Shown piece by piece: positions 1 through 17,949 of a DNA stretch of 64,000 nt. Each line of letters begins with the position of its first letter. Position 1 is the stretch's first letter. The translations under genes and the position numbers were made by a program. Source of the stretch: Lachnospiraceae bacterium (lineage in GTDB: Bacteria > Bacillota > Clostridia > Lachnospirales > Lachnospiraceae). Where the stretch lies: the NCBI GenBank assembly GCA_022794265.1, contig JAAWEK010000015.1:104054-168053 (forward strand), given 5' to 3'. The notes below the pieces were generated by a model. That model saw nothing but the letters and a program-made list of their open reading frames with translations. It was not told the DNA's origin and did not search any database.

Positions 1-3000
1 TTGAATATATAAAATTTCGCCAAGTGTTTCACATAATGTTTTTATTAAAGATACTTCCTCATCTTTATTACATTCATTAAAAATGAGTTCATCCATTTGC
101 ATAACTTCTTTAATATATCTTTTACCTTTTCGATAAGCCACTTCCTGACACTTTTCATTATCATTTTCTCTAAGCAACAAATCAAAATTATTACTTAAGG
201 TATCATTTAAATCCAAATCATAAAGTTTAACATTCCATTTATCAAACTCTTTCATGATACTTTTTGCAAGACCATTGATGCCATAGTTAATGAACGAACA
301 GCATTCACTTTTATCTATTTGGTTTACGTTATTTGTTATGATTTTAAAGTCTATTTTCTTTTCAGAATAGCCACAAATATGTAGTAACTTTATTATATTT
401 AACAGTTCAATGTATTCTTTCTCATGAATAGAAATGAAATCCGTTACTGTGTATTTTCCATTTAAATCAAATTTCATTGTCGTGAAATAATAAACCATAC
501 TAACATTATCTGTAAACATAAGTTTTCTTTGTATAATTTGTTGACTGTTGCCAGAATCAATTTTTATATAATAAATTTGTGAGTTTATATATTTTTTATT
601 AAATTTTAACTGTATATCCTGCTCATTGTCGTGAAAAAAAACAATAATGCTACAATTATATTCCTGATTCAGTTCTTCTTTTACAGCCTCAGCTATCCAC
701 TCTTTTGATGTACTTTCAATTAGAGTATCATTTGAAATCTGATTATTCCAATATTTATTTTCATCAAAACAATACTTCGGCAAATCAACTCTCTTGTAAT
801 GTTTCTCGTCAATTAAAGAATTCCAGTTTATATTTAAGCCTTTTTTCCATAGCTCTATCACAAATTCTTTTCTGTTCTCTTTATCCAGTAAAGAACTATT
901 GATAGTAAAAAGGGTATACTGATCCGGTAAACACTTCATTTTGCATTTTGAATCAATATTTTCTTTTATGAGCTTCTCTATTTCATATGAAGAAATATTA
1001 TTTTCACCACTTAAAATCTCATACTGATTTTTTAATGTTTTCTTATTAAAATTAGAATTACAATTTATAATAACTTCAGAGTATTTTTCTTCATTCATAT
1101 TTCTTAGAATAATTCCAATACAATCTTCTTTAGTGATAATATCTTCTGTTAACATATTTAGTAATTCATATATCTCTCGGTTCTCAAAATTTCTTTGTCT
1201 ACTTAAACTCCATTTAACATTTAACCTATCCAATGAATTTAATATTATAATCATAAGAATTAATTTTTTCGGAGTTCCAGTTGTAACATTTTCAGTTATT
1301 GACTCTTCAAGAAGAGACTCGAAAATTCCATATTCCTCAATATACAAATTCCATTCATCAGCGTATTTTTTAAATGTATGCTGAAATTTATATAAAATCT
1401 TTGCTTTTTCAATAAATTCATTACACTGTTTTGAATCCAAACTAATACCATCAAATAATTTTCTTAACTGCATTTTTGATATATTAATTCTTTTATATAA
1501 ACGATTATTAGACCAATCATAAAACGGTATACTAGGACAACCTATTTTTATTTCTTTAATTGTTTTTTTACCATTTATATAAGCCCTCATGTCCTCAATA
1601 GATATAATTCCGCTAATAACTAATGCAACACAAATACCTTCATTTTCTGAAGTTATAACATCTGATTTCAATCCTATTTTTTCGAGACCCTTATACAAAT
1701 CATATACTTCTTCAAAATCACCTTTACCAATTACAGAAATAATCTGCTTCTTTGATTTAGTATCACATATATTTCCCTTATTTGCCAATAATTTTATGAT
1801 ATCTTCCTTATTTTTAACCAAACCACCTATTCTATATTGAAATTGTTTTCTCCCATTCATTAATGTAAATGAAATATCGGATATTTCATTCTTGCATATT
1901 TCATTAATATTTGCAGACCATTCATTTTTTGTTTTAATTAAGCTATTCTCACTTTTTGCTGAAAGAAGAAAATAATAAGAAACTTCATTGGAATTCGAAC
2001 ATACTTCATCCCTTACATCTTTTTCTTCCATATATTCTTCAAGTAATACGTGTGCATTCGTTCCACCCAATCCAAAAGAACTAATACCTGCTCTAAGAGG
2101 CTGATCCTTATTTAATCTTTTCCATTCAGTGCTTTCAGTAACTAATTTAAACGGGCTATCTTTCATTTCAAGAATCGGATTAATCGTGTTCAAATGCAAA
2201 CTTTTAGGAATAAATTTGTTGTTTAGCATAAGCACAACCTTTATCAGACTTGCCATAGCCGCACAACCTTCTAAATGTCCTATATTTGCTTTTACAGAAC
2301 CAATCGTACAAAACTGCTTTTCATCTGTATATTCTCTAAACAATTGTGTTAACGCCTCTACTTCTATAGGATCTCCAAGTGATGTTCCTGTTCCATGAGT
2401 TTCAACATATGACACTTCGTTTGGCATAAAGTCCGTTTGCAAATATGCGTTATGTATTACTTCTTTTTGTGCTTCAACACTCGGCGCAGTCAATGATAAT
2501 GCATGTCCACCATGATTAATTGCACATCCCTTAATCACAGCATAAATCTTGCTATTGGCCTCTACTGCTTTTTCCAATGGTTGTAATAATATAACTGCTA
2601 CACCTTCTCCAGGAACATATCCATCTGCATCTTTATCAAATGTATGACATTTCCCTGTTTCACTAAACATCCTGCTTTTTGACCATGTAGTAAGTTTATT
2701 TGATGATAAATGTAAATTTACACCACCTACAAATGCATAATCCGAAGATTCCTCAATCAAAGCCTGACAAGCTGTTTTAAGAGCTACAAATGATGATGAA
2801 CAACCTGTATCTAATGTAAAGCTTCCACCTTTCAAATCCATATAATATGATATTTTGTTTGCTAACATAAAATAATATGTTCCATTTGCAGTACTAATAT
2901 CTGTTTTTTCGGTTTTATACGGTTCATATGCAACAGATCCAACATGTACAGAAGTTATTTTATCTTTAATTTCCTCATATGATATAGAAGAATCTTCAAT

Positions 3001-3303
3001 GCAATGCCATGCCTCTTGTAATAATAATCTCTGGCAAGGATCCATGTTCTCTGCTTCTCTTGGAGATATATTAAAAAAGTTGTTATCAAATTTATCAATA
3101 TCTTCAAGAGCACCTAACCATTTACAATATGTTTTGCCTTGTTCCATAATATCTGCGGAATATATTTTCAGCGCATCCCATCTCTCTTTTGGAATTACAT
3201 CAACTGCATCTACACCATTTACAAGATTATCCCAAAACATTTTTTTATTTTTAGCTTTAGGAAATCTACATGCCATTCCAACAATCGCTATATCTTTATT
3301 CAT
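1..3303 (-). CDS. Polyketide synthase, KS-KR module (3' end beyond window)
   Basis: Partial; 1101 codons are visible and the gene continues past the left edge. The N-terminus is a ketosynthase domain that would catalyse decarboxylative condensation. Its catalytic triad is visible: Cys168 in DTGCSSS, His303 in ETHGTGT and His343 in KANIGHLEG, and the domain ends at a GGTNAH motif. There is no acyltransferase domain. At about residues 835-855 the typical PKS linker motif (LPKYCFDENKYW) appears. The last visible ~120 residues resemble the structural half of a ketoreductase (NYGINGLAKSIMKEF). The layout suggests a trans-AT-like or iterative KS-KR enzyme; an ACP could lie downstream. It starts 18 bases after the ABC permease gene, with AGGAGG about 14 bases upstream of ATG, and is the last visible gene of the operon. 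The domain call is confident, the product unknown. Confidence 0.9.
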   Translation of the reverse strand, partial: MNKDIAIVGMACRFPKAKNKKMFWDNLVNGVDAVDVIPKERWDALKIYSADIMEQGKTYCKWLGALEDIDKFDNNFFNISPREAENMDPCQRLLLQEAWHCIEDSSISYEEIKDKITSVHVGSVAYEPYKTEKTDISTANGTYYFMLANKISYYMDLKGGSFTLDTGCSSSFVALKTACQALIEESSDYAFVGGVNLHLSSNKLTTWSKSRMFSETGKCHTFDKDADGYVPGEGVAVILLQPLEKAVEANSKIYAVIKGCAINHGGHALSLTAPSVEAQKEVIHNAYLQTDFMPNEVSYVETHGTGTSLGDPIEVEALTQLFREYTDEKQFCTIGSVKANIGHLEGCAAMASLIKVVLMLNNKFIPKSLHLNTINPILEMKDSPFKLVTESTEWKRLNKDQPLRAGISSFGLGGTNAHVLLEEYMEEKDVRDEVCSNSNEVSYYFLLSAKSENSLIKTKNEWSANINEICKNEISDISFTLMNGRKQFQYRIGGLVKNKEDIIKLLANKGNICDTKSKKQIISVIGKGDFEEVYDLYKGLEKIGLKSDVITSENEGICVALVISGIISIEDMRAYINGKKTIKEIKIGCPSIPFYDWSNNRLYKRINISKMQLRKLFDGISLDSKQCNEFIEKAKILYKFQHTFKKYADEWNLYIEEYGIFESLLEESITENVTTGTPKKLILMIIILNSLDRLNVKWSLSRQRNFENREIYELLNMLTEDIITKEDCIGIILRNMNEEKYSEVIINCNSNFNKKTLKNQYEILSGENNISSYEIEKLIKENIDSKCKMKCLPDQYTLFTINSSLLDKENRKEFVIELWKKGLNINWNSLIDEKHYKRVDLPKYCFDENKYWNNQISNDTLIESTSKEWIAEAVKEELNQEYNCSIIVFFHDNEQDIQLKFNKKYINSQIYYIKIDSGNSQQIIQRKLMFTDNVSMVYYFTTMKFDLNGKYTVTDFISIHEKEYIELLNIIKLLHICGYSEKKIDFKIITNNVNQIDKSECCSFINYGINGLAKSIMKEFDKWNVKLYDLDLNDTLSNNFDLLLRENDNEKCQEVAYRKGKRYIKEVMQMDELIFNECNKDEEVSLIKTLCETLGEILYIQ

Positions 3304-3321
3304 TTATCTTTCTTTAGCCTC

Positions 3322-4932
3322 CTATGCTTGCAAATCTCTTTTTCCATATCCTAAATATCCAACTATTGTTAAAATTGCTGAAATTAGAATAAATACCACT
3401 AATTTGATCCAATCCGTACCATCCGCAAAAGTATTTGGTACATTAACGTATGGAGATAATTTCATCATCCATTTATCCAAATTCAACATTGAACCAAAAT
3501 AACTTACAAAAAATGAATATGCCAAAAATGCCCACACTAAAATTGTTATTCTTGGTATTAATCCAATTACAGCAATTGCGGCACCCGCTATAATCCAAAT
3601 TGCTGGAATAAATGCACATGCAGCCTTCAACATATCGCTTAATTCAAATGGTGTATCACCAATCACCTGATTTCCAGAAATCCAGAAACTTACCGCAAAT
3701 ATCAATTGCAATACAATAGAAATAAAGATAGAACAAATCAAAAATGCAGATAACAGTTTTCTTCTTGTTATAGATTTTGAAATGAGGCATTCAATTCTAT
3801 TTGTAATTTCTTCTTCTCTAATCTTTATGATTGTTGTAATAACAGGAATTGTTGTAATCATTGCAAAAATTGAAGTAATAACATTAATAAACTGATACAA
3901 CAGTTCACCACTATTCGAATCACATGCCAATATTTGTAACATTAACCCGTTTGACTCAAGTTGGGTTCTTATTTCTTCCAGCATGGCTCCAAACGATATT
4001 CCCAGTATTATATAAGCGATTATCCATGCTAAATACTCTACTCTCAGAATTTTAACAACCAATCCCAACGGACCATGTAAAAATACAGATCCACTGTCTC
4101 TGCCGGTTTTTTCATGAAATAATCCAATACCTAAATCTCTTTTACTGTTAATTAAAAAAGCCAAAAGAATAAATACAACTGAAATTACTATTGATAATAT
4201 AACTGGCCATATTTTATTCTCAACATACACCTGCGCTCTCATAATCCAGCCTAATGGTGAAAGGACTGCAACATTTTCATTTCCAATATCACCTATAGCT
4301 CTAACAAAATATGAAATTCCAAGTATTGCAAATGAAAAACCTAATGAAGCTTTTGAATTAGTAAGCAATTGGTTAATACACGCTGTAATTGCAGCAAACA
4401 TAATACCTGATATTCCCAAAACTATTCCAAACATCATTGAACCAACGAAATTTATTGATTCTATATTTAATGCAGTCAAACTCAATCCTACTAAAAGACT
4501 TAATAGAATATTGATTCCTACACAAACTATTGTTGTCGCCAGTACGTTAAAAAGTCTCCCAGTTGATTTGGAACGAATAAGTTCTATTCTTCCTGCTTCT
4601 TCATCACCTCTAAGATTTCGATTTACAATCAAAATATTCATAATTGCCACTGCAACAATTGTAAAAAGCAGAGATTGTTGAGACATTAATGCCCCTAAAG
4701 AATAATTATCTTTTCCATATGCTTTTCCCATCATTGCCACCATTACAGGATTACTCATAGACTCTGCAACAATCTGCCTATCAGCCTGTGTTGGATATAA
4801 ATCACCAAACATTTGTGCCTGCCCTATTGTAATAACCCAAAGTAATATTAGCCACACAATAATAAATACTCTCTCTTTTCTCAGTACAAACCTGATATAC
4901 GTATATGTATTATTAAAGAGATTTTTTAACAT
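3322..4932 (-). CDS. ABC-2 type exporter permease (polyketide-exporter-like)
   Basis: Integral membrane protein of about 536 residues with roughly twelve hydrophobic segments in two similar halves. It resembles the family annotated as putative exporters of polyketide antibiotics (double-size ABC-2 permeases). Features are an N-terminal cytoplasmic helix, then a TM pair around a large loop, and a LSPLGWI motif near residue 225 typical of that family. The start chosen is the ATG at 4932 with GGAG nine bases upstream; a longer start at 4953 lacks a comparable site. The gene overlaps the 3' end of the ATPase gene by 20 bases, so the two are translationally coupled and form one transporter. Its place inside a ketosynthase/PKS operon suggests export of the product or self-resistance. 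The substrate is inferred only from context. Confidence 0.85.
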   Translation of the reverse strand: MLKNLFNNTYTYIRFVLRKERVFIIVWLILLWVITIGQAQMFGDLYPTQADRQIVAESMSNPVMVAMMGKAYGKDNYSLGALMSQQSLLFTIVAVAIMNILIVNRNLRGDEEAGRIELIRSKSTGRLFNVLATTIVCVGINILLSLLVGLSLTALNIESINFVGSMMFGIVLGISGIMFAAITACINQLLTNSKASLGFSFAILGISYFVRAIGDIGNENVAVLSPLGWIMRAQVYVENKIWPVILSIVISVVFILLAFLINSKRDLGIGLFHEKTGRDSGSVFLHGPLGLVVKILRVEYLAWIIAYIILGISFGAMLEEIRTQLESNGLMLQILACDSNSGELLYQFINVITSIFAMITTIPVITTIIKIREEEITNRIECLISKSITRRKLLSAFLICSIFISIVLQLIFAVSFWISGNQVIGDTPFELSDMLKAACAFIPAIWIIAGAAIAVIGLIPRITILVWAFLAYSFFVSYFGSMLNLDKWMMKLSPYVNVPNTFADGTDWIKLVVFILISAILTIVGYLGYGKRDLQA

Positions 4933-5824
4933 TGATATCATCTCCATTTTCATTGTAGTAATGCATAAATAAATCTTCTAATGCCATTGGAGTCACTTCT
5001 ATTTTTTCGATATTAAATGCTGATACCTGTTTCATAATTTCTCCAATTTTTTCAGAATCAACCTGAAACTTTATTAACCTGTCTTTCTGCTCTACACAAT
5101 GAACTCCTATTATTTTTTCAATTTGCGTTGCTGAAACTGATGCCATAATTTCTACATTCGTTCTTGTAAGATGTCTCAACTTATCTAATGTTCCGGTTTC
5201 TATAATCTTCCCATGTTTAATAATTCCAACTTTATCACATAATCTCTCAACTTCAGATAAAATATGACTTGATAATAGAACACTTTTTCCCTTTTCTTTT
5301 GATTCTGCAACACATTCCTGAAAAACACTTTCCATCAGCGGGTCCAACCCTGATGTAGGTTCATCTAAAATAAGGAAATCAGCATCTGATGCAAATGCAG
5401 CAACCAGAGCAACTTTCTGTCTATTTCCTTTTGAATAAGTTCTACACTTTTTTTTAGGATCAAAATCAAATCTCTCAATCAGTTCTTTTTTCTTTAAATC
5501 ATTCTGTTTTCCATTTAATCTAAGGAAAAAGTCTATCACTTCGCCCCCAGTTAGATTGTTCCACAAATTAACATCTCCTGGTACATATGCCAGCTTTTTA
5601 TGAATCTCTTCTGCTTGCTTCCAAACATCTTTTCCAAAAATGGAAGCATATCCGGATGTTGCTTTATATACACCTAAAAGAGTTCTTATAGTTGTTGTTT
5701 TCCCTGCCCCATTAGGCCCAATAAATCCAAACACTTCGCCTTTCCCAATTTGAAAACTTATTTCATTTAAAGCTCGGAAATCACCAAATTGTTTTACCAA
5801 TTTATTTACATTTAAAACATTCAT
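4913..5824 (-). CDS. ABC transporter ATP-binding protein
   Basis: Nucleotide-binding subunit of about 303 residues that would energise the adjacent permease. Visible motifs are Walker A (GPNGAGKTT), Q-loop region, signature-like YSKGNRQKVAL, Walker B (FLILDEPTSGLD) and the H-loop SSH. The C-terminal ~90 residues form the extra domain common in drug/antibiotic exporters of the DrrA/CcmA type. The start chosen is ATG 5824, with AGAGG about ten bases upstream; the frame is open to 5857 but that would overlap the upstream gene. It lies 23 bases after the FabG-like gene and overlaps the permease gene. Function as an exporter ATPase is solid; the transported molecule is unknown. Confidence 0.92.
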   Translation of the reverse strand: MNVLNVNKLVKQFGDFRALNEISFQIGKGEVFGFIGPNGAGKTTTIRTLLGVYKATSGYASIFGKDVWKQAEEIHKKLAYVPGDVNLWNNLTGGEVIDFFLRLNGKQNDLKKKELIERFDFDPKKKCRTYSKGNRQKVALVAAFASDADFLILDEPTSGLDPLMESVFQECVAESKEKGKSVLLSSHILSEVERLCDKVGIIKHGKIIETGTLDKLRHLTRTNVEIMASVSATQIEKIIGVHCVEQKDRLIKFQVDSEKIGEIMKQVSAFNIEKIEVTPMALEDLFMHYYNENGDDINVKKSL

Positions 5825-5847
5825 TTCTTTATCGCCTCTATACTTTC

Positions 5848-6591
5848 CTAGATACAAATACCACCATTTACTTCACATATCATTCCATTACAATAGGCTC
5901 CGTCATCACTTGCAAGCATCATAACTACAGAAGCAATTTCTTCTGGTTTTCCAAACCTTCCAAGCGGTATTTTTTTTAAATTACGCTCTTTAATTTTTTG
6001 TGGAATATTTTCCACCATATCTGTAGAAACCAGTCCCGGAGATACAGCGTTAACAGTGATTCCTTTTAATCCCAATTCCTGAGAGAGGGTTACAGTCATA
6101 CCGATTATTCCAGCTTTTGAAGCAGCATAGTTTGCTTGTGTTCTAGCCCCCTTTTGACCGGCAATTGAAGCTATATTAATGATACGTCCATATTGCTGTT
6201 CAATCATATAATTAACCACTGCTTTTGTACAAAAGAATGTTCCATTTAAATTTGTACTTATAACATTCATCCATTGTTCACAGCTCATCTTCTCAAAAAA
6301 ATTATCATCTTTGATTCCTGCATTATTTACAAGAATATCAACCCTTCCATACCTTTCAATTATAAAATCAACCATAGCCTTTGTCTGTTCAAAATCTGTT
6401 ATATCCACCGCAAACGAAACAGCAGTTCCGCCTTGTTTTATTATTTTTTTTACTACTTCTTCACACTTTGCATAGTTTCTTGACGCTACAACCACATTTG
6501 CCCCCTCTTTGGCAAAACGAATGGCGATACTTTCTCCTATTCCCCTACTTGCACCAGTCACTATGGCTATTTTATTCTCTAATATTCCCAT
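5848..6591 (-). CDS. SDR-family 3-oxoacyl reductase (FabG-like)
   Basis: Short-chain dehydrogenase of 247 residues, the usual FabG length. It has the TGASRGIGESIA dinucleotide-binding motif, the NNAGI motif, the active-site Ser in NIASIAG and the YAASKAG Tyr-Lys pair, followed by the NAVSPGLVSTDM loop. The family reduces 3-oxoacyl-ACP (or CoA) thioesters with NADPH. Its ATG overlaps the stop of the preceding ketosynthase gene (TAATG), showing tight operon coupling. A reductase beside five KASIII genes suggests that at least one condensation product is reduced to a 3-hydroxyacyl group. A housekeeping FabG role is less likely, since the rest of a fatty-acid synthesis cluster (ACP, FabD, FabF, FabZ) is absent here. 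Confidence 0.9.
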   Translation of the reverse strand: MGILENKIAIVTGASRGIGESIAIRFAKEGANVVVASRNYAKCEEVVKKIIKQGGTAVSFAVDITDFEQTKAMVDFIIERYGRVDILVNNAGIKDDNFFEKMSCEQWMNVISTNLNGTFFCTKAVVNYMIEQQYGRIINIASIAGQKGARTQANYAASKAGIIGMTVTLSQELGLKGITVNAVSPGLVSTDMVENIPQKIKERNLKKIPLGRFGKPEEIASVVMMLASDDGAYCNGMICEVNGGICI

Positions 6592-7598
6592 TATGAATCA
6601 ATAAAATCCTCCTCACAACACCATTTTATTAACACTGCCCCCCATGCGAATCCTGCACCAAAAGATGCTAATGCTACTCTTTGCCCCGGCTTTATCAAAC
6701 CTTTTTCTGAAGCTTCAGCTAATGCAATCATTACTGATCCTGCACCTGTATTTGCATATTTTTGAAGATTTATATATGCTTTATCCATAGGAAGATGTAA
6801 TTCATTCATACCAAACTCAATCATATTTATATTTGCTTGATGCGGAATAATCCAATCTATATCCTTTGTTTCACAATTTACATTTGCTGCCAACTGTCTG
6901 ATAGCCAACGGAAATAGCTTCGTCCCAAACTTCCATACTTCCCTTCCGTCTAAAGTGATTTTAAACTTATTTTGTTTAAAAGCTTTCTCTGTTATTGGAA
7001 CCCGCGATCCGCCTTCACAAACAATACAATCTGCTCCCCATTCACCATCTGCACCAATAAGCGATGTTTCAAAACCGCTTCCTTCTTTACATCTTCTTAA
7101 AACAGCAGCACCTACTCCATCTCCAAAATAAACAGATACATACTTATCTGAAATATCAACAAGTTTTGAATAGATGTCTCCTGCTATAACAAGTACGTTT
7201 TTGTACATTTCATTTTCTATGAATTGTTGCGCTACAACTAATGAATAACAGCTTCCAGGACACCCACCTACATTAATGTCAAAAGCTGCCGCATTACATG
7301 CACCAAGCTTTTTCTGCATAATAACTGCTGTTGAAGGAACCCGGCAATCTTGATTAATAGCACACACGATAATTAATTCAATATCTTCGGACTTTATGCC
7401 TGAATTTTTAATTGCATTTAAAGCTGCCGGATAAGCCATATCTGATAAACATTCATTATCTGCTGCAATTCTTCGCTCTTTAATCCCTATTTTCTTTTGA
7501 ATCCACTCATCTGTTACATCTGCATACTGTTCTAATTCCTTATTTGTCATTACTCTCTTTGGCAAATAGTATCCCATTCCTGCAATTCCAACTTTCAT
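6591..7598 (-). CDS. KASIII-like ketosynthase E (complete triad)
   Basis: FabH-type 3-oxoacyl synthase III, 335 residues. The thiolase-fold triad is complete: Cys113 in GGCPGSC, His253 in IPHQAN and Asn283 in YANTGAG. The family condenses an acyl-CoA starter with malonyl-ACP or transfers acyl groups. Compared with housekeeping FabH (AACAGF around the cysteine), the loop here reads VGGCPGSCYS and seems one residue longer; the paralogue at 8460-9446 shares this. N-terminal G-I-A-G-M-G-Y-Y-L-P and C-terminal F-G-A-G-F-A-W-G-A-V-L-I are typical of the family. It is the fifth ketosynthase in transcription order, 14 bases after the hydroxyacyl-CoA dehydrogenase. Likely catalytically competent; the acyl substrate cannot be read from sequence. 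Confidence 0.88.
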   Translation of the reverse strand: MKVGIAGMGYYLPKRVMTNKELEQYADVTDEWIQKKIGIKERRIAADNECLSDMAYPAALNAIKNSGIKSEDIELIIVCAINQDCRVPSTAVIMQKKLGACNAAAFDINVGGCPGSCYSLVVAQQFIENEMYKNVLVIAGDIYSKLVDISDKYVSVYFGDGVGAAVLRRCKEGSGFETSLIGADGEWGADCIVCEGGSRVPITEKAFKQNKFKITLDGREVWKFGTKLFPLAIRQLAANVNCETKDIDWIIPHQANINMIEFGMNELHLPMDKAYINLQKYANTGAGSVMIALAEASEKGLIKPGQRVALASFGAGFAWGAVLIKWCCEEDFIDS

Positions 7599-7612
7599 TT
7601 TTATGTACTCCT

Positions 7613-8440
7613 TTAATTATATGTATAGTATCCTTTTCCGGATTTTCTTCCTAAATTTCCGTCATCCTTCATTTTCCGAAGTTGCGGACATACTATATAT
7701 CTTTCGTTATTAAACGCTTTATACATAGTATCGATAACATTAACTGCAATATCAATTCCTACTTCATCCGCAAGACTTAATGGTCCTATTGGTAAATTCA
7801 TCCCTAATTTTGCGATAGTATCTATATCCTCTTTATTTGCAACTCCTTCCATACAGATTGAAGCAGCTTCGTTAACAAGTACTGCCACAAGACGGCTTAC
7901 AACAAATCCGGGAAAATCATTAACTACTATTGGTATTTTATTTATTAATCGAGCTATGTTGCATACATATTCTATCGTCTTGTCAGATGTCTTATTTGTT
8001 TTGACAATTTCAACTAATTTCATAACTGGTACCGGCGACATAAAATGCATTCCAGCTATTTTATCTAACCTATCAACTGCAATATCACCAATTGAAATAC
8101 TGGATGTATTTGAAACAAGAATTGTATCTGGTGGACATATTTCTATCAAGTGTGTAAAGACTTGTTTTTTCATTTCCAGATTTTCATTTATACTTTCTAT
8201 CACCAGTTCACAGTTTTTTACTTCATTAATTTCGCATGTTATATGGATATTTGACATCACTTCTTTGTATTCCTCTTCAGTTAGCTTTCCTTTATTTTTT
8301 TCGTGAGCAATATATTCATTCAGACGCTCATCATCTACTCGTCTCTTAATGGCCACAACTTCAATCCCATGAGTTGCACATGATAGTATTATCCCTCTTC
8401 CCATTAATCCATGTCCTATCACAGCTACTTTTCTCTTCAT
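7613..8440 (-). CDS. 3-hydroxyacyl-CoA dehydrogenase (HbdH/PaaH-like)
   Basis: Protein of 275 residues of the 3-hydroxybutyryl-CoA dehydrogenase family, which interconverts 3-hydroxyacyl-CoA and 3-oxoacyl-CoA with NAD(P)H. Seen are the Rossmann motif GHGLMGRG at residues 9-16, catalytic Ser in NTSSIS, His in GMHFMSP, and Asn-Glu in VNEAAS. The C-terminus is the usual 3HCDH domain ending GRKSGKGYY. It lies between two KASIII genes with only about 20 bases on either side, so it is part of the operon rather than of a butyrate pathway; crotonase, thiolase and acyl-CoA dehydrogenase genes are absent. It may reduce a diketide intermediate, or oxidise a hydroxyacyl unit as similar enzymes do when building unusual PKS extender units. 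Confidence 0.9.
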   Translation of the reverse strand: MKRKVAVIGHGLMGRGIILSCATHGIEVVAIKRRVDDERLNEYIAHEKNKGKLTEEEYKEVMSNIHITCEINEVKNCELVIESINENLEMKKQVFTHLIEICPPDTILVSNTSSISIGDIAVDRLDKIAGMHFMSPVPVMKLVEIVKTNKTSDKTIEYVCNIARLINKIPIVVNDFPGFVVSRLVAVLVNEAASICMEGVANKEDIDTIAKLGMNLPIGPLSLADEVGIDIAVNVIDTMYKAFNNERYIVCPQLRKMKDDGNLGRKSGKGYYTYN

Positions 8441-8459
8441 ACAGAATTACCTCCTGATG

Positions 8460-9446
8460 TTACAATTCAAGTAAAACAGTTCCCCATGCGGTTCCCGCAC
8501 CAAAAGATACCAGAACTACTTTATCTCCTTTTTTTATTACACCATTCTCTATTGCCTCAGCTAATGCAATACCAACAGAGGCAGAACTAGTATTTCCATA
8601 TTTATGAATATTATAATACGTTTTTTCCATTGGTATTCCAAGGTTCTCCATAGACTGCCTTATGATATTTAAGTTTGCCTGATGCGAAATCACAAAATCT
8701 ATATCTGATAATGTCATTTTATTTTTTTTGACAATCTCTTTCACTGCATCAGGAAATGCCTTCGTGGCAAAATCAAATATAGCTCTTCCATCCATTCTGA
8801 AATATTGCCTTTTTTCTTTAATTGCTTGTTCTGTTATAGGTTCTGCAACTCCTCCAGCCGGGATGTATGCTGCATAGTAACCTTCCGGATCTGTATATAA
8901 CTTTGAATCAATAATTCCTGCTTCAGTTTCATCCACAGACTTTAAAATGATTGCAGCAGCGCCATCACCAAATATTACTGCTGTTGATCTATCTTCCCAA
9001 TCAAGTCCTTTTGAATTTATATCTGCTGTAGCGACTAATATTGTTTTACATGTTCCATCTGCAATATACTTTGATGCTATAGAAAGAGAAAATACACTTC
9101 CAGGACATCCACCGGTTCGTATGTCAAAAGCAAATGCGTTTTTTGCCCCTATTTTTTTCTGTATTGCCACACTTGTAGCTGGACTTATATGATCCGGAAA
9201 ATTTGTAGCAAGAAGAATCATATCAATATCGTCAGCCGTTATATTTGCATTTTTCATTGCTTTTTTAGCTGCCTCAGCTGCCATATCTGAAGTTAATTCA
9301 TCTTCGGCTGCAATTCTTCTCTCTTTTATTCCAATCTTTGTTGTTATCCATTCATCACTCGTATCCATAATTTTCATTAAATCAAAGTTTGTTACAATTT
9401 TCCCAGGAACATAATATCCTGTTCCAATTATTTGAGATTTTCTCAT
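8460..9446 (-). CDS. KASIII-like ketosynthase D (complete triad)
   Basis: FabH-type enzyme of 328 residues with a full catalytic set: Cys114 in TGGCPGSVF, His255 in ISHQAN and Asn285 in YGNTSSAS. It is the closest relative in this operon to the ketosynthase at 6591-7598, sharing the unusual GGCPGS active-site loop, the TDEWI/SDEWI-T-x-KIGIKERR segment and the end FGAGTAWGTVL. It is therefore the most likely of the five, with that paralogue, to perform true decarboxylative condensation. It starts at ATG 9446 and lies ten bases downstream of the ketosynthase at 9457. A housekeeping FabH cannot be excluded but the tandem arrangement and the altered loop argue for a specialised role. Confidence 0.88.
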   Translation of the reverse strand: MRKSQIIGTGYYVPGKIVTNFDLMKIMDTSDEWITTKIGIKERRIAAEDELTSDMAAEAAKKAMKNANITADDIDMILLATNFPDHISPATSVAIQKKIGAKNAFAFDIRTGGCPGSVFSLSIASKYIADGTCKTILVATADINSKGLDWEDRSTAVIFGDGAAAIILKSVDETEAGIIDSKLYTDPEGYYAAYIPAGGVAEPITEQAIKEKRQYFRMDGRAIFDFATKAFPDAVKEIVKKNKMTLSDIDFVISHQANLNIIRQSMENLGIPMEKTYYNIHKYGNTSSASVGIALAEAIENGVIKKGDKVVLVSFGAGTAWGTVLLEL

Positions 9447-9456
9447 TTACTTCTCC

Positions 9457-10434
9457 TTATACTTTAATTACTAAAGCCGTCCATGTCATTCCAGCTCCTT
9501 GAGCCATCATAAGAACATGTTCACCTTTCTTTAACAAGCTGTCATGCTTCATCCTATAGTAATTCAATAACATATCCACTGTTCCGCAATCCCCTGTATA
9601 TGATACATATCTGTAATTTGTTTTTTCTAAAGGCATATTAAATGTTTTTATTACTTTTTCAAATAAACCATATCCCACATTTGGAAAAATAATATGATCA
9701 ATATCTGATACATTCAATCCACTATTTTTTACTGCCATAATTCCAACTTCATGAAAACAGTCAATATTAACAGGTATCATCTTATCTCTGGCTTTTTCAT
9801 TATCAACAACTCTATAATAATAGTCATCTCCCTGATTCCTGTTTGCCGGAGGCTTAATTGTTCCAACCTGCATACGAGCCATATCGTGTAGATATCCTTT
9901 TCCAATTTGGCCATACCCCAAAATAAAATTTCCTGTACTATTATTTTGTACAATAGCAGCTACAGCAGCTTCCCCCATAATTAACTTTCCAATCATTCTC
10001 TTTGGTACTGTTTCATCCCACTTTTCTGAAGTATTGACAAGTACCGTATTAGTTAAATTATCTCCTAATATATAGTTTTTTGCAGTAATCAAGCCTGTAA
10101 CAAATCCACTACAATTTTGATAAAGATCAAAAAAGGCGGCATTTACAGCACCAATTTCATTTTGTATTTTTCCAGAAACCTGCCAGGTCAAATAGTCTGG
10201 CAAAGTTGCCTGAGTATTTATAATCCAATCAATTTTATCCGCCTTTATGTTAGCATCATCAATTGCTCTTTTTGAAGCTATTACTGCCATATCTGTCGCT
10301 GTAAAATCAGTCTCATACAATACTGATTTAATACCTGTTTTGATTCTAAATTCCTCATTAAAATCTGACGCTATCTCATCAATCAAAATATTTGTTTTCG
10401 GTACATATACTCCAATCCCTGTTATTCCAATCAT
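9457..10434 (-). CDS. KASIII-like protein C (His and Asn not conserved)
   Basis: KASIII-fold protein, 325 residues. Cys108 is kept in the YQNCSGF loop, but where FabH has PHQAN this protein reads FPNVGYG, and where FabH has YGNTSAAS it reads YTGDCGTVD. The usual His and Asn are thus not at their expected positions. A GDCGTVD-type C-terminal loop is seen in KASIII relatives that act as acyltransferases or in heterodimers rather than as classical condensing enzymes; that link is by analogy. It keeps the end motif QGAGMTWTALVI. The start codon is 12 bases after the stop of the paralogue at 10447-11442, with which it may form a complex. Nucleophile retained, chemistry uncertain. Confidence 0.82.
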   Translation of the reverse strand: MIGITGIGVYVPKTNILIDEIASDFNEEFRIKTGIKSVLYETDFTATDMAVIASKRAIDDANIKADKIDWIINTQATLPDYLTWQVSGKIQNEIGAVNAAFFDLYQNCSGFVTGLITAKNYILGDNLTNTVLVNTSEKWDETVPKRMIGKLIMGEAAVAAIVQNNSTGNFILGYGQIGKGYLHDMARMQVGTIKPPANRNQGDDYYYRVVDNEKARDKMIPVNIDCFHEVGIMAVKNSGLNVSDIDHIIFPNVGYGLFEKVIKTFNMPLEKTNYRYVSYTGDCGTVDMLLNYYRMKHDSLLKKGEHVLMMAQGAGMTWTALVIKV

Positions 10435-10446
10435 TCTTATTCACTC

Positions 10447-11442
10447 CTAAAATTTTAGCAAACCAGAGAACCATGCCACACCACCAATTCCTATAAAAAG
10501 TATTAAATCGCCTTTTTTTATTTTATTGTTCTTCTTTGCCTTTTCTAAAAGGACATATATGTCGCCACCACTAAAATGTCCTATATCCTTTTTGAATTCC
10601 TGAGCTGTTGGAATGTCTCGTCTTCCCAGAGCTTCTAGTATTCGCTTATCAAAATTATCCTGTTGAACAAGAGATATCATATAATCAACATCTTTTAAGC
10701 CAAATCCATTTCGTTCCAAAACATTTTTTACTACTTGCACAAATTTTATAAATACATAAGGTTTAATTTCGTTCAAGTACATATCTTCTTTGACAGTAAC
10801 ATTACTTACAAAATCCGTTCCATTCCATTCCATTCCTCTTTTAAACGGAAATGCAGTTCCTCCATTTTTCACATAAGCCATGTCATGACATTTAACATAA
10901 TTACATATTTCAAAATCCAAGTAATTGAAATCTTTTGCATTTTTCTGTAATACAACCGCCTGCCCACCTGCACTTAAAAATGTTGGCCACCCATATCCGA
11001 ACAATCTTTCTCCAGCCACCACCAAAACCGTTTCAATACCTGTATTAGCTTTAATTTGATTGGCAGCTATTTCTATAGACTCAAAATAGGCTGAACATGC
11101 CCCTTTTACATCAAAAGTCAAAGCCTTATCGGCCTTTAATTTATACCTCAAATAATTACTGAGCTGCCAACTAATATAATCTGTTTTAAATGAAGAAACA
11201 ATAATCATATCTATGTCGCTTCCGTTAATTCCTGCATCTTTTATTGCATTTTTAGAAGCCTCAAGAGCCATAAATGAAGACTGCTCTTCTTCATCAGGAA
11301 TAAAAATCCGATTCACTCCAATATGTTTATATGCTTTTTCTGTCATGTTTAACTCATCTGCAATTGCTCTTGTATCTGCCATTTTTTTAGGAAAATAAAA
11401 TCCCATTCCTGCAATTCCTACCGAAACTGTCTCTTTGTTCAT
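10447..11442 (-). CDS. KASIII-like protein B (His and Asn not conserved)
   Basis: KASIII-fold protein, 331 residues, with N-terminal GIAGMGFYFP and Cys116 in KGACSAYFE. At the usual His site it reads MISLVQQDNF, so His is replaced by Leu or Val, and the Asn loop reads DIGHFSGGD. It therefore keeps the nucleophilic cysteine but not the decarboxylating His/Asn pair. It could act as an acyltransferase, a chain-length-setting partner, or the non-condensing half of a heterodimer. It starts at ATG 11442 and is followed after 12 bases by the next KASIII gene. Divergence from its neighbours is high, so it is an old paralogue rather than a recent tandem copy. Confidence 0.82.
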   Translation of the reverse strand: MNKETVSVGIAGMGFYFPKKMADTRAIADELNMTEKAYKHIGVNRIFIPDEEEQSSFMALEASKNAIKDAGINGSDIDMIIVSSFKTDYISWQLSNYLRYKLKADKALTFDVKGACSAYFESIEIAANQIKANTGIETVLVVAGERLFGYGWPTFLSAGGQAVVLQKNAKDFNYLDFEICNYVKCHDMAYVKNGGTAFPFKRGMEWNGTDFVSNVTVKEDMYLNEIKPYVFIKFVQVVKNVLERNGFGLKDVDYMISLVQQDNFDKRILEALGRRDIPTAQEFKKDIGHFSGGDIYVLLEKAKKNNKIKKGDLILFIGIGGVAWFSGLLKF

Positions 11443-11469
11443 TTCTATTTCTCTTTCTTCAAAGTTCTA

Positions 11470-12459
11470 TTACTTTTGAATTACCATTGCTTCCATATTG
11501 CAGTCTATACCATTAGAAATAACTAACAACACATCACCTTTTTTATAAGTTGTATTATTAATAAACTCTGCCAATACTCTCATAGCTCCTACTGTTCCTA
11601 GAAATCCTTCATTAGAGATTAAATCAATTCTCTTTGATATATTAAATTTACTTAAAATATTATTATTTATTTTCTTACTGAATCCAGCTATTCCAATATA
11701 ATCTATTTCGTCTTCAGACAATCCTGATTTTTCAATTGCCTTACGTCCAACTAATACACTAAACTCTTCTGAACATTCTATTATGCCTGCGAGATGAGAA
11801 TCATCCAATATTCCATATGTAAATTCCCCGTTTTCCAAGGCTTCTTTTGGTAGTTCGTACTTTGTTCCTCCATATTTGAATCCGGCTACAAGATTATATT
11901 TACTTATACTCTCATATGCTATACTCAATATTTCATTTTTTCCTATATTGGTTTGAAGAACAACACTTCCTGCAGCATCACCGAGATATGTTGGCCCGAG
12001 TTTTCTCTTGTTAGAATGATTATCCCACAAAAGAGAAGATGTAATGATTGCCGTCGAAATGTTTTTATTACTAATCAACTGATTTCCTACAAATTGAATT
12101 GTCTTTATTGTTCCACAGTTTCCGGTACAAATATCATATGTATATACTACATCATCATCTCGCCCGCCTATATTTCTCAGAATTGATTTTGAAGTATCCA
12201 TATAAAGATAATCAGATATTCCCTCTGAAATACAGACTAATTCATCAATTGACTTCGGATTAATATTTTCTATTGATTTTTTCACTACTCTTGTTGCCAT
12301 TTCTGTAGTCAGTTCGCCTTTATTAGCCACACATATTTGTTCAATTCCCGATTCATCTGCAACCTCTAAATCATCTGCTAATGTCATTTTACTTATTCTA
12401 TTATCAGGTATTTCAGTTGCTATAGAATTAATACAGATTTTGAATTTATTATCTAACAA
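11470..12459 (-). CDS. KASIII-like protein A (first gene of operon, TTG start)
   Basis: KASIII-fold protein; I place the start at TTG 12459, giving 329 residues, because AAGGAGG lies ten bases upstream and the frame-open extension to 12501 has no ribosome-binding site and would make it longer than its paralogues. Cys115 is kept in CTGNCGTI. The expected His segment reads GIAGFSKKI and the Asn loop reads GFLGTVG, so both partner residues are missing. It is the most degenerate of the five. It opens the operon, about 190 bases downstream of the small ORF at 12646-12699. A role as scaffold, acyl carrier-side transferase or regulatory partner is possible; none can be chosen from sequence. Confidence 0.8.
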   Translation of the reverse strand: MLDNKFKICINSIATEIPDNRISKMTLADDLEVADESGIEQICVANKGELTTEMATRVVKKSIENINPKSIDELVCISEGISDYLYMDTSKSILRNIGGRDDDVVYTYDICTGNCGTIKTIQFVGNQLISNKNISTAIITSSLLWDNHSNKRKLGPTYLGDAAGSVVLQTNIGKNEILSIAYESISKYNLVAGFKYGGTKYELPKEALENGEFTYGILDDSHLAGIIECSEEFSVLVGRKAIEKSGLSEDEIDYIGIAGFSKKINNNILSKFNISKRIDLISNEGFLGTVGAMRVLAEFINNTTYKKGDVLLVISNGIDCNMEAMVIQK

Positions 12460-12590
12460 ATACTTTCTGCCTCCTTCTAATACCGATTTAAAACGAAACA
12501 AATTATTTAATAATATTGATTTTGCATCAATTTTTATTCAATAATCAGTTACAGTAATTAACAACCGGATATCAAAATGTAATTTTTTAT

Positions 12591-12635
12591 TAAACTTTGC
12601 ACATGAATAAAAATAGAACTCATATGCAAAGTTTA
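12591..12635 (-). other. Long leader hairpin before the ketosynthase operon
   Basis: Inverted repeat with 16-base arms at 12591-12606 and 12620-12635 and a 13-base loop. In minus-strand RNA all 16 pairs form, one as G-U. No U-tract follows on the minus strand, so it is not a standard terminator. It lies between the small ORF and the first ketosynthase gene. Confidence 0.7.
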
Positions 12636-12645
12636 AGTCTTTTGT

Positions 12646-12699
12646 TTAATTTTTCCAAAAGTATTTCCACAAATAGTCCCATAGAGTATAATATATCAT
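12646..12699 (-). CDS. 17-residue aromatic-rich small ORF (candidate signal or leader peptide)
   Basis: A tiny ORF encoding MIYYTLWDYLWKYFWKN. GGGAGAG lies about seven bases upstream of ATG, within AAGGGAGAG, an unusually good site. Eight of 17 residues are Trp, Tyr or Phe; Trp7, Trp11 and Trp15 are spaced by four, which would put them on one helix face, with Asp and Lys opposite. It follows the T-run of the stem-loop at 12715-12755 by about 15 bases and precedes the operon of ketosynthases. No signal peptide or processing motif is evident. It could be a leaderless peptide sensed by the neighbouring AgrC-like kinase, a leader peptide of an attenuator, or a chance ORF. No family is recognised. 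Confidence 0.45.
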   Translation of the reverse strand: MIYYTLWDYLWKYFWKN

Positions 12700-12714
12700 A
12701 AAATCTCTCCCTTC

Positions 12715-12755
12715 AAATAAAAAACAGACTAAAACATTAGGTACAGTTTTAGTCT
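12715..12755 (-). terminator. Stem-loop with T-run (terminator or attenuator)
   Basis: Perfect 10-base inverted repeat (AGACTAAAAC / GTTTTAGTCT; 12726-12735 and 12746-12755) with a 10-base loop, followed on the minus strand by TTTTTT. It ends the kinase/regulator transcript but also lies downstream of the putative promoter at 12769, so transcription from there into the ketosynthase operon would have to pass it. Confidence 0.75.
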
Positions 12756-12768
12756 ATCTCATATTCGA

Positions 12769-12818
12769 ACTATAATCCACTATTTTCCCGCAAACGGTCC
12801 AATTAATCTGCAAGTGGT
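12769..12818 (-). promoter_or_regulatory. LytTR-type direct repeats and -10 box
   Basis: On the minus strand two 9-base repeats, ACCACTTGC (12810-12818) and ACCGTTTGC (12790-12798), are offset by 20 bases, about two helical turns. They are followed 15 bases later by a TATAGT -10 box (12769-12774) without a good -35. Direct repeats of this size and spacing are the known target type of AgrA/PlnC-like LytTR regulators, one of which is encoded just upstream. One repeat overlaps the kinase stop codon. Confidence 0.5.
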
Positions 12819-14101
12819 TAATTCCTTATTCTAAGTTCCACAATAAACTGATTTTTTTCGACTTTTAATACAAGTTCTCCACTATTTTTTTCAACAATAT
12901 TTTTAACATTTTTTAATCCATAACCATGATTTCTTTTATCTGATTTTGTTGTAAGTATCTCATTTTGGATTATTTTATCTTCTGTATTTTGATATGTATT
13001 TTTTATAATAAAATATGTAAAAATTTTTCCAACCTTTATGGTAAAACTAATTTTTTTCTCATAATTAACCACCTTATCAACTGCTTCAATTGCATTTAAG
13101 ATCAAATTAGATATGACGATACATAAATCCCTGTCAGAAACATTTACTGAATCCGAAAAATATCCATTTATCTCTATTTTGCATCTTCTTCTAACGGGCA
13201 AAAGATAGTAATTCAATAATGTATTTACAGTATCATTACCAACATCATAATCATACTTGCTTATAAAAGATATTTCTTTTAAAGTTTCTGCTATATATTT
13301 TTCCAATCCATCGTAATCTCTTTTTATAGAAAGGTTTTTTATTTGTATCAATTCTGCTATGATATCATGCCGGAACTGTCTTGTTTTTTGCTCCTTCTCT
13401 AACAATAATTCAAAATATTTCTTCTGTTGTTCATTATATTTTTCCAATACTTCATTCTTTATTTGGTATTTCTGCTGTACATTAAAATAATAAATCATCA
13501 ATAAAAATGTAACTAGAATTATTCCACCTCCAAAAGTCACAAGACCCAGCCCAAAAAGCCCCTGTCTCGTATTTATGACCTCAGACAGTGCATATGTAAA
13601 ATATGAAAGCATGGCAATAATAATAAGCAAAAATAGTGACAAAATAATATTCATTCCTGCTTCTAAGATAAAAGCATCCCGTTCAATCTTCCTTCCAAGT
13701 AAAAAATAAAATACCCAAAGTAATGCAATAATAATAGTCAAATACGTTAATGATAGAACAGCATTATCCAGATGTAAAAGATATTTTAAAAAATATCCTG
13801 TTACACTTTCCAGAATTGACAACATAAGAAATGCCAGAAAATATAAACTGACAGTTTCAAGCCATAATAGATGGTATATCAATGATAAATTTATTACAGA
13901 CATAACTAATGCCAAAACAAGCGTTATTTCTGTTTTTCCAAGCCACACTATACATACCAGGCAAGCTATATTGATAATTATAATAAATAATTTGTTTTCA
14001 TACTGCTTATCCTGTCTTCTCTTTCCATATATCACATAAAAAAAAGATAAATATTCAATTATAACCAGAAAAAATATTAAAATATTTACTAAAATATTCA
14101 T
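12818..14101 (-). CDS. AgrC-like GHKL sensor histidine kinase
   Basis: Membrane sensor kinase of about 427 residues. The first ~210 residues hold six to seven hydrophobic segments, then a coiled linker, the phospho-acceptor His in RQFRHDI, an N-box LILNAIEAV and a glycine-rich HGYGLKNVKNIVEKNSG ATP lid. This is the peptide-sensing HPK10 (AgrC/ComD-like) arrangement. The start is ATG 14101 (GGATTTGAA upstream), one base after the response regulator stop; the open frame to 14128 would overlap that gene. Kinases of this class usually sense secreted peptides. No agrB/agrD-like genes are visible in the window, so the ligand is unknown; the small ORF at 12646 is a candidate, as is the product of the ketosynthase operon. 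Confidence 0.9.
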   Translation of the reverse strand: MNILVNILIFFLVIIEYLSFFYVIYGKRRQDKQYENKLFIIIINIACLVCIVWLGKTEITLVLALVMSVINLSLIYHLLWLETVSLYFLAFLMLSILESVTGYFLKYLLHLDNAVLSLTYLTIIIALLWVFYFLLGRKIERDAFILEAGMNIILSLFLLIIIAMLSYFTYALSEVINTRQGLFGLGLVTFGGGIILVTFLLMIYYFNVQQKYQIKNEVLEKYNEQQKKYFELLLEKEQKTRQFRHDIIAELIQIKNLSIKRDYDGLEKYIAETLKEISFISKYDYDVGNDTVNTLLNYYLLPVRRRCKIEINGYFSDSVNVSDRDLCIVISNLILNAIEAVDKVVNYEKKISFTIKVGKIFTYFIIKNTYQNTEDKIIQNEILTTKSDKRNHGYGLKNVKNIVEKNSGELVLKVEKNQFIVELRIRN

Positions 14102-14102
14102 T

Positions 14103-14810
14103 TCAAATCCTTTTTTTATCAAAATCAATTATTTTTTGCAACACTTCTCTGAATTTTCGCCTTGCTATAGGTATTTTTTCGCCATTATCCATTTTTACAT
14201 ATTCTTTCCGGACATCACATACATGACATACATTAATAATATAACTTCGATGCACAGACAAAAAAATTCTTTCATCTAATTCGGCCTGTATGGATCTTAA
14301 AGATTTATTGCTTTCAAATATTTTTTCTTTCGAATATATTTTTAAGTAATCTCTATGAGATTCAATCACTTGTATCTCTCTCTGTTGTAATATACATTCT
14401 TTTCCATTATAATTTAATCTGATTATCTCAAAACCGAGTAAAGAAAAAAAAGCATTATCCAAAGCCTCAAATAATTCCTCTTTTTCAATCGGTTTTGTAA
14501 CAAATCTTGTGGCGCCAATTTTAAATGCCTCTTTGAATCTTTCTCTTTTACTTGTCAGCATTATGATAATTTTTTCTTCATCTTTTTTAGATAGTTCCGC
14601 TGCTGTTTGAATCCCATCCATTTCAGGCATATCTATATCCAATAAAATGATTTTGTATTCCGTCGATAACTCCAATAACTCCTTACCGGAATAACAGTCG
14701 AATAAATCATATCTAAAATTCTCTTTATTTTCATATTCCTCTAATAATTTCCAAACCTCCTCATGTATCGCGTTTTCATCATCACAAATTACAATATTTA
14801 TACTTTTCAA
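14103..14810 (-). CDS. LytTR-family response regulator
   Basis: Response regulator of 235 residues. The receiver domain (1-125) carries the acidic pair Asp10-Asp11, phospho-acceptor Asp58 in LLDIDMPEMDG, and the conserved T/S and K (MLTSK, FVTKPI). The C-terminal domain is LytTR (about 135-230) with SHRDYLKIY, FLSVHRSYIIN and IARRKFREV, as in AgrA. LytTR domains bind pairs of short direct repeats, and such repeats lie at 12790-12818 ahead of the ketosynthase operon. It is co-transcribed with the kinase; the likely promoter is at 14845-14874. Likely function: control of the neighbouring biosynthetic operon. Confidence 0.92.
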   Translation of the reverse strand: MKSINIVICDDENAIHEEVWKLLEEYENKENFRYDLFDCYSGKELLELSTEYKIILLDIDMPEMDGIQTAAELSKKDEEKIIIMLTSKRERFKEAFKIGATRFVTKPIEKEELFEALDNAFFSLLGFEIIRLNYNGKECILQQREIQVIESHRDYLKIYSKEKIFESNKSLRSIQAELDERIFLSVHRSYIINVCHVCDVRKEYVKMDNGEKIPIARRKFREVLQKIIDFDKKRI

Positions 14811-17878: not shown

Positions 17879-17949
17879 TCCATGTTCCCCTTTCAATCAC
17901 TTTAAATACAGCCTTTTTAATTTATTCTATGTGTAACAGAAAGGATATA

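Follow-up and report, generated by a model that had tools for sequence, protein, structure and literature searches.

At the left end of a 64,000-nucleotide stretch of the genome of a Lachnospiraceae bacterium (contig JAAWEK010000015.1, positions 104,054 to 168,053; hereafter the window), an operon was found that combines five genes of the β-ketoacyl-acyl carrier protein synthase III (KASIII) fold, here named KS1 to KS5, with a single-module polyketide synthase (PKS) that has no working acyltransferase (AT). The operon comprises 12 genes, is real and complete, was probably acquired and, judged by its genes, probably makes a small polyketide; its composition is unrecorded as far as our searches reach. 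The reading that we favour, at somewhat better than an even chance, is that of a probably acquired operon for a short, exported polyketide, in which KS1 and KS2 would supply the starter, a KASIII-fold protein would transfer acyl groups, and one AT-less module would serve as the assembly line. The operon genes in the window are as follows, in the order of transcription.

11470..12459, minus strand: KS5, KASIII fold, first gene of the operon; nucleophile Cys (TGNCGT) present, His and Asn/His gone
10447..11442, minus strand: KS4, KASIII-like; Cys, a His where FabH has Asn, and Asp at +5 (GHFSGGD); FabH His absent
9457..10434, minus strand: KS3, KASIII-like; Cys and +5 Asp present, acyltransferase His replaced by Asp (GDCGTVD)
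8460..9446, minus strand: KS2, KASIII candidate condensing enzyme; Cys-His-Asn intact, above FabH model cut-offs, unusual GGCPGS nucleophile loop
7613..8440, minus strand: 3-hydroxyacyl-CoA dehydrogenase-like protein; nucleotide loop GHGLMG, catalytic stretch GMHFMSP
6591..7598, minus strand: KS1, KASIII candidate condensing enzyme; Cys-His-Asn intact, above FabH model cut-offs, GGCPGS loop
5848..6591, minus strand: FabG-like 3-oxoacyl reductase; NNAG and YxxxK motifs
4913..5857, minus strand: ATP-binding cassette (ABC) transporter ATPase, DrrA-like
3322..4953, minus strand: permease paired with the ABC ATPase; matched no family
1..3303, minus strand: AT-less single-module PKS of 1158 aa, its final 57 residues encoded left of the window

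An initial annotation of the window had described five KASIII-fold genes, a dehydrogenase, a FabG-like reductase, an ABC exporter and a PKS as running in one direction. This layout was confirmed: the five KASIII-fold genes are complete, and all genes at 1-12501 lie on the minus strand with intergenic gaps of at most 27 bp. It had also pointed to the region left of position 1 as a place to look for acyl carrier protein (ACP), thioesterase and AT genes. When the PKS gene was completed with genomic DNA from there, an ACP was indeed found, together with a gene for a metallo-β-lactamase-fold hydrolase 5 bp after the PKS gene and, 3 bp beyond that, a phosphopantetheinyl transferase (PPTase) gene with a Pfam ACPS match, and no AT. 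Further left lie genes read from their sequences as the housekeeping genes tadA-like, pfk, dnaX and recR-like. Gene content and order speak for one compact operon whose product would be a small polyketide, probably exported.

By its sequence, the PKS is one trans-AT-type (AT-less) module. In hmmscan a ketosynthase (KS) domain, a CurL-like linker and an ACP were matched, and no Pfam match to AT or ketoreductase (KR) was obtained. The KS domain (residues 3-507) has a complete catalytic Cys-His-His set (GCSSS 167, HGTGT 303, NIGH 340), and the C-terminal ACP (1089-1154) bears a GMDS motif. The protein was aligned with the N-terminal module of the Bacillus velezensis PKS encoded beside fabD and with two other AT-less PKSs. 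An AT remnant (approximately 550-660) is recognisable by VALVISGI and IPFYD, and its GHSxGE motif is gone. Of the KR, the structural half alone is left (approximately 1000-1075); no catalytic half, such as Sporomusa and Bacillus have, precedes the ACP, and the TGG motif is absent. In the Sporomusa relative the KR match spans residues 1195-1376 and the ACP 1472-1535. With no Pfam KR match, no TGG motif and no catalytic half in the alignment, the previous description of a KS-KR enzyme was abandoned in favour of the order KS, dead AT remnant, half KR without catalytic part, ACP.

The nearest KS relatives among the matches listed come from Sporomusa, Pelosinus, Paenibacillus and others and are at most 52% identical (48-52% for the top ones). 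The related KS domains sit at the N-terminus of a PKS protein in all 12 loci displayed, and an AT match was absent from both relative PKSs scanned. The operon's PKS thus has what marks a trans-AT PKS, namely a complete KS with trans-AT-type relatives and no working in-line AT; a free-standing AT was not found among the 12 operon genes. Multi-gene PKS clusters of trans-AT type were also seen in two other genomes (G912 and G913, loci L112-L115), and G912 has a trans-AT-like cluster in which a similar hydrolase scores 208 bits and a PPTase is matched weakly, at 26 bits.

KS1 and KS2 look like chain-building condensing enzymes. Both carry the Cys-His-Asn (C-H-N) set of FabH-type condensing enzymes and exceed the cut-offs of the FabH models NF006829 and TIGR00747. 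In a tree they stand at the base of the FabH clade. Their GGCPGS loop was found in none of the other 62 members of an alignment that comprised 64 KASIII-like sequences, those of the cluster among them, nor in 16 sequences added later.

KS3, KS4 and KS5 are different. In the active-site census of the same 64 sequences, 50 were C-H-N, ten (KS4 among them) C-L-H and two C-S-Y, and KS3 (C-P-D) and KS5 (C-A-F) each stood alone; the Cys of KS5 is one column off in the census alignments (read there as N) and falls, as Cys114, in the nearly invariant column of another alignment. None of the three has the condensing triad. One of the C-S-Y proteins is encoded by the source genome's seventh KASIII-like gene (L005:1495-2499, contig 9), which groups with a gene of locus L058. 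The predicted model of KS5 has a helix from residue 116 and shows the KASIII fold in full, with an active site that is nearly empty. In the tree KS3 to KS5 sit on very long branches away from the FabH clade, and their joining is not trusted since long branches meet; the placement of KS1 and KS2 relative to KS3-KS5 weighs against a single origin of the five-gene array.

By its residues KS4 looks like a candidate acyltransferase of the CerJ/ChlB3 type. A section of PMC9573744 reports that ChlB3 transfers acyl groups by a triad Cys113-His296-Asp301, also present in CerJ, and cites Cys and His mutants that had lost activity. KS4 has this set (Cys, His in place of the Asn, Asp at +5), and in HMMER alignments its GHFSGGD is in register with GHLGASD of ChlB3 and GHVGAGD of CerJ. 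The set is broken in KS3 (Asp for His) and in KS5 (Phe and Gly). For the C-terminal part of KS3, CerJ was the best PDB match (1.2e-07), followed by 9z38 and three daunorubicin-synthase (DpsC-type) sequences.

The best NCBIfam model for KS3, KS4 and KS5 was PRK06840/NF005308 (160, 159 and 92 bits, respectively, all below the curated cut-off of 315). Proteins assigned to this family by similarity (L218-L227, L012, L022) have His-Asp at the CerJ/ChlB3 positions (YGHxGQxDQ), as in L222:10602-11627 and L226:9837-10877, and a nucleophile Cys, replaced by Ser in L224. Their His lies one column beside the FabH His, which makes a C-L-H assignment unsure for them; KS3 to KS5 have no nearby His. In nine of ten loci from the phylum, ABC ATPase genes that we read as importer-type were nearby, and in five a second KASIII of C-T-Y type. 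These proteins may act as acyltransferases in a catabolic route instead of as synthases.

Among the remaining genes, the metallo-hydrolase carries the metal motif HxHxDH and scored 173 bits with the model of SolJ, a solanimycin hydrolase (curated cut-off 350). The dehydrogenase suggests a step on a CoA-bound β-hydroxy or β-keto acyl group. Domain scans revealed neither a dehydratase (DH) nor an enoyl reductase among the operon genes; the product would therefore be short and oxygenated, or enzymes of fatty-acid synthesis would be borrowed. In the source genome, whose assembly is 91% complete, a single match to PF00698 (AT) was found, on contig 8 and 1.3 kb from FabH. Since the only AT found adjoins FabH, the simplest assumption is that fatty-acid synthesis supplies the malonyl groups.

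Sister clusters were sought in samples of 60, 397, 391, 392 and 398 genomes, which overlap partly and each include the source genome. With KS5, 8 of 60 genomes matched, the seven foreign ones at 20-27% identity. A KS3-5 profile matched 267 of 397 genomes of the family (334 genera), with at most five candidates scored per genome and the 267 itemised in part. Twenty loci were fetched, 16 from this search and four (L060-L063) from that with KS5, and each had one KASIII-like gene: nine resemble operons of fatty-acid synthesis that include FabF and FabG, in one the KASIII gene stands with FabG at the end of a contig, six have two ATPase matches (PRK06840 type) and four have neither. KS4 matched 82 of 391 genomes of the class at 1e-15 (best 89 bits); the foreign matches had 24-31% identity over the full length and up to 36% where partial. 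The PKS matched 14 other genomes among 392 of the order at 1e-60, none past residue 552 and the best at 48%. In the phylum (398 genomes, 1e-40) the KS3-5 profile matched 62 others (best 205 bits), and ten loci were inspected. Five of these have more than one KASIII-like gene within 20 kb (two each in L219, L220, L222 and L226, three in L223) and no PKS match. Since members of the phylum have such pairs and triples close to ABC genes of importer type, a tandem of KASIII genes is not in itself unique. Of the unusualness first ascribed to them, what stands is their combination with an AT-less module, which was not found elsewhere.

Searches beyond these samples gave the same picture. Every plasmid match was below 60% identity, and in none of 1256 records was the PKS covered to 80%. 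A search of genome contigs with exact peptides of the PKS gave ten stretches, none of which was confirmed. A KS alignment yielded at least 564 confirmed matches, of which 79 distinct loci (5-22 kb each) were kept. In none of the 79 was a KASIII match found beside the related KS domain; the cluster's KASIII proteins, dehydrogenase and hydrolase had no best-hit open reading frame there, and the PPTase had one (L161). No description of such a cluster was found among open-licence PMC papers. A portion of PMC7930024 mentions gut anaerobes, a Lachnospiraceae bacterium among them, with trans-AT architectures that are unassigned. That the cluster's composition was not recognised at first was thus borne out in the samples searched.

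The locus is variable and the cluster accessory. No KS5 homologue was found in eight genomes of the same genus. Six of them had a pfk match (1e-100), and in the six loci fetched the cluster's biosynthetic genes were absent upstream of pfk within about 3 kb (two loci) or 11-13 kb (four); one of them (L233) has an unrelated ABC ATPase match there. In genome G006, pfk is followed within 3 kb by homologues of ksgA and of the gene that occupies 16664-17896 in the window. A genus-wide cluster was rejected on the same-genus loci and genomes compared. GC content is 32% at 1-12501, 37% at 15001-64000 and 40-42% in stretches to the left. The cluster was probably acquired horizontally from outside; a donor was not found in the searches made.

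From gene order, reading frames, domains, catalytic residues and the absence of AT and KR activities, all read in the sequence, we infer the following route: (i) the PPTase would arm the ACP of the PKS; (ii) malonyl groups would come from the fatty-acid synthesis protein FabD, which has the only AT domain found in the genome; (iii) KS2 and/or KS1 would join an acyl-CoA starter to a malonyl carrier, giving a short starter; (iv) FabG and the hydroxyacyl-CoA dehydrogenase would reduce the β-keto group, a reduction that the PKS itself has lost; (v) KS4, together with KS3 and KS5, which would be related or partner subunits, would act as an acyltransferase of the CerJ/ChlB3 type and hand an acyl group on, either to the carrier of the PKS or to a hydroxyl; (vi) the KS domain of the PKS would add one or a few units; (vii) the metallo-hydrolase would release or edit the chain; (viii) the ABC pair would export the product.

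Several observations weigh against this reading. The right flank is fairly AT-rich too, so that the GC contrast is strong only leftward, and the searched samples held no second copy of the cluster that would show which parts are conserved. Most trans-AT systems have a free-standing AT; here none is in the cluster, and a 91%-complete assembly could miss one. The predicted structure of the PKS (predicted local distance difference test score 47) was too poor for use, leaving the domain assignment to the sequence, and the loss of half a KR could also mean decay. The C-terminal part of KS4 aligned to ChlB3 and CerJ with just 22.5 and 20.9 bits and was scored higher by two ordinary FabH chains; in full-length PDB comparisons FabH chains lead for KS4 and KS3 alike. 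Because FabH chains score higher, the acyltransferase case for KS4 rests on residues, not on rank. Finally, KS3 without the acyltransferase His and KS5 without both residues may have no catalysis.

A bolder form of the favoured reading is tentative, and we would sooner bet against it: the operon might represent a new kind of assembly line, in which a diverged KASIII set took over loading, acyl transfer and possibly gatekeeping, with two members condensing, one transferring and two acting as partners, and with separate reductases. Rather unlikely, too, is that KS3 to KS5 are mainly non- or half-catalytic partners of KS1 and KS2 in heteromers whose pairing shapes substrate choice. KASIII enzymes are dimers, and PqsB pairs with PqsC. 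PqsBC is described, in a section of PMC4807248, as a FabH-like condensing enzyme. The tight linkage of the five genes and the apparently empty active site of KS5 within an intact predicted fold would fit such partners; the nucleophile Cys in KS3, KS4 and KS5 and the complete His-Asp pair of KS4 speak against them.

Upstream of the operon lie three further features.

12460..12817, minus strand: intergenic region, presumed promoter region of the operon
12818..14128, minus strand: GHKL-type sensor histidine kinase, a possible regulator
14103..14810, minus strand: LytTR-type response regulator

A product that is a cell-cell signal sensed by this pair, and not an antibiotic, would be compatible with the favoured chemistry and is likewise rather unlikely. 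GHKL/LytTR pairs usually sense peptides, which is a point against it, and no site for the regulator was identified. The pair lies directly upstream on the same strand and is low in GC (27%), the kinase matches AgrC weakly (26 bits against a cut-off of 500), and a KASIII-like enzyme takes part in making PQS-type signals, as stated in part of PMC4807248. A terminator-like inverted repeat, recognised by pattern, follows the kinase gene (12712-12769, 24-nt arms, 79% complementary, loop 10) and divides the two units, so that kinase and regulator apparently form a separate one; it was not among 12 terminator-like sites of a separate scan, whose loop limit was 8. Between the kinase gene and KS5 lies a second inverted repeat (12590-12636, 17 nt, 94% complementary), a possible operator or leader hairpin.

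That the operon is what decay has left of a larger trans-AT PKS cluster is improbable. The lost catalytic half of the KR, the missing AT gene and the lost active-site residues of KS3 and KS5 would agree with decay. Against it, all 12 reading frames are intact, signature motifs are kept in KS, ACP, FabG, dehydrogenase, hydrolase and PPTase, genes are spaced as in a working operon, and the lack of KASIII matches in the 79 related KS loci places the KASIII genes outside the usual parent line. The scheme put forward at first from five KASIII-fold genes, two reductases and a PKS in one operon, with five successive KASIII condensations building the starter chain of the PKS, was rejected as highly improbable, since three of the five proteins lack both His and Asn of the condensing triad, which leaves KS1 and KS2 as the only C-H-N members, and since the operon has no dehydratase or enoyl reductase.

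If the favoured reading holds, the operon would be a compact natural example in which a single fold has diverged into condensing, acyl-transferring and degenerate copies, and a small, complete and testable metabolite source from an anaerobe. As far as our searches reach, what was not found elsewhere is the KASIII array combined with an AT-less PKS module; its parts have parallels. With the first modules (KS-KR-ACP) of trans-AT systems, such as those of Sporomusa ovata (L125) and of the B. velezensis PKS beside fabD, which we take to be macrolactin MlnB, the PKS shares a KS of 48-52% identity, an AT remnant without active site, the structural half of the KR and an ACP. It differs in being a stand-alone single module without the KR catalytic half, in a cluster without an AT gene and with adjoining KASIII genes. 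PRK06840/NF005308 is the best model for KS3-KS5, and proteins of this kind likewise have Cys with His-Asp at the ChlB3 positions; KS3-KS5 score far below 315 bits, and the relatives lie near two or more ABC-ATPase genes, importer-type by our reading, in nine of ten phylum loci, not in PKS operons. KS4 has the same Cys as CerJ and ChlB3, a His at the FabH Asn position, Asp at +5 and no FabH His. It differs from them in low overall similarity and in its setting, beside two putative condensing and two more divergent KASIII proteins in a clostridia-like genome. In the carbazole clusters (neocarazostatin/carquinostatin), as outlined in a part of PMC7466098, a classical KASIII and FabG form 3-hydroxybutyryl-ACP, which is used by a second KASIII-like enzyme. 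This pairing is a precedent for the chemistry proposed; the thiamine diphosphate (ThDP) enzyme, CqsB2-like cyclase and aminotransferase of that account were not seen in our operon, which has a PKS module instead. The celluxanthene (cex) cluster of Clostridium thermocellum, as given in portions of PMC12144888, likewise brings together two KASIII, a PPTase and a PKS in an anaerobe. There CexF is an iterative PKS, the legend of the pathway figure names KS, AT, KR, DH and ACP, and the cluster includes an AMP ligase and an α/β hydrolase. The operon described here has no AT or DH; its likeness to the cex cluster, so far as those portions describe it, lies in KASIII genes, PPTase and PKS.

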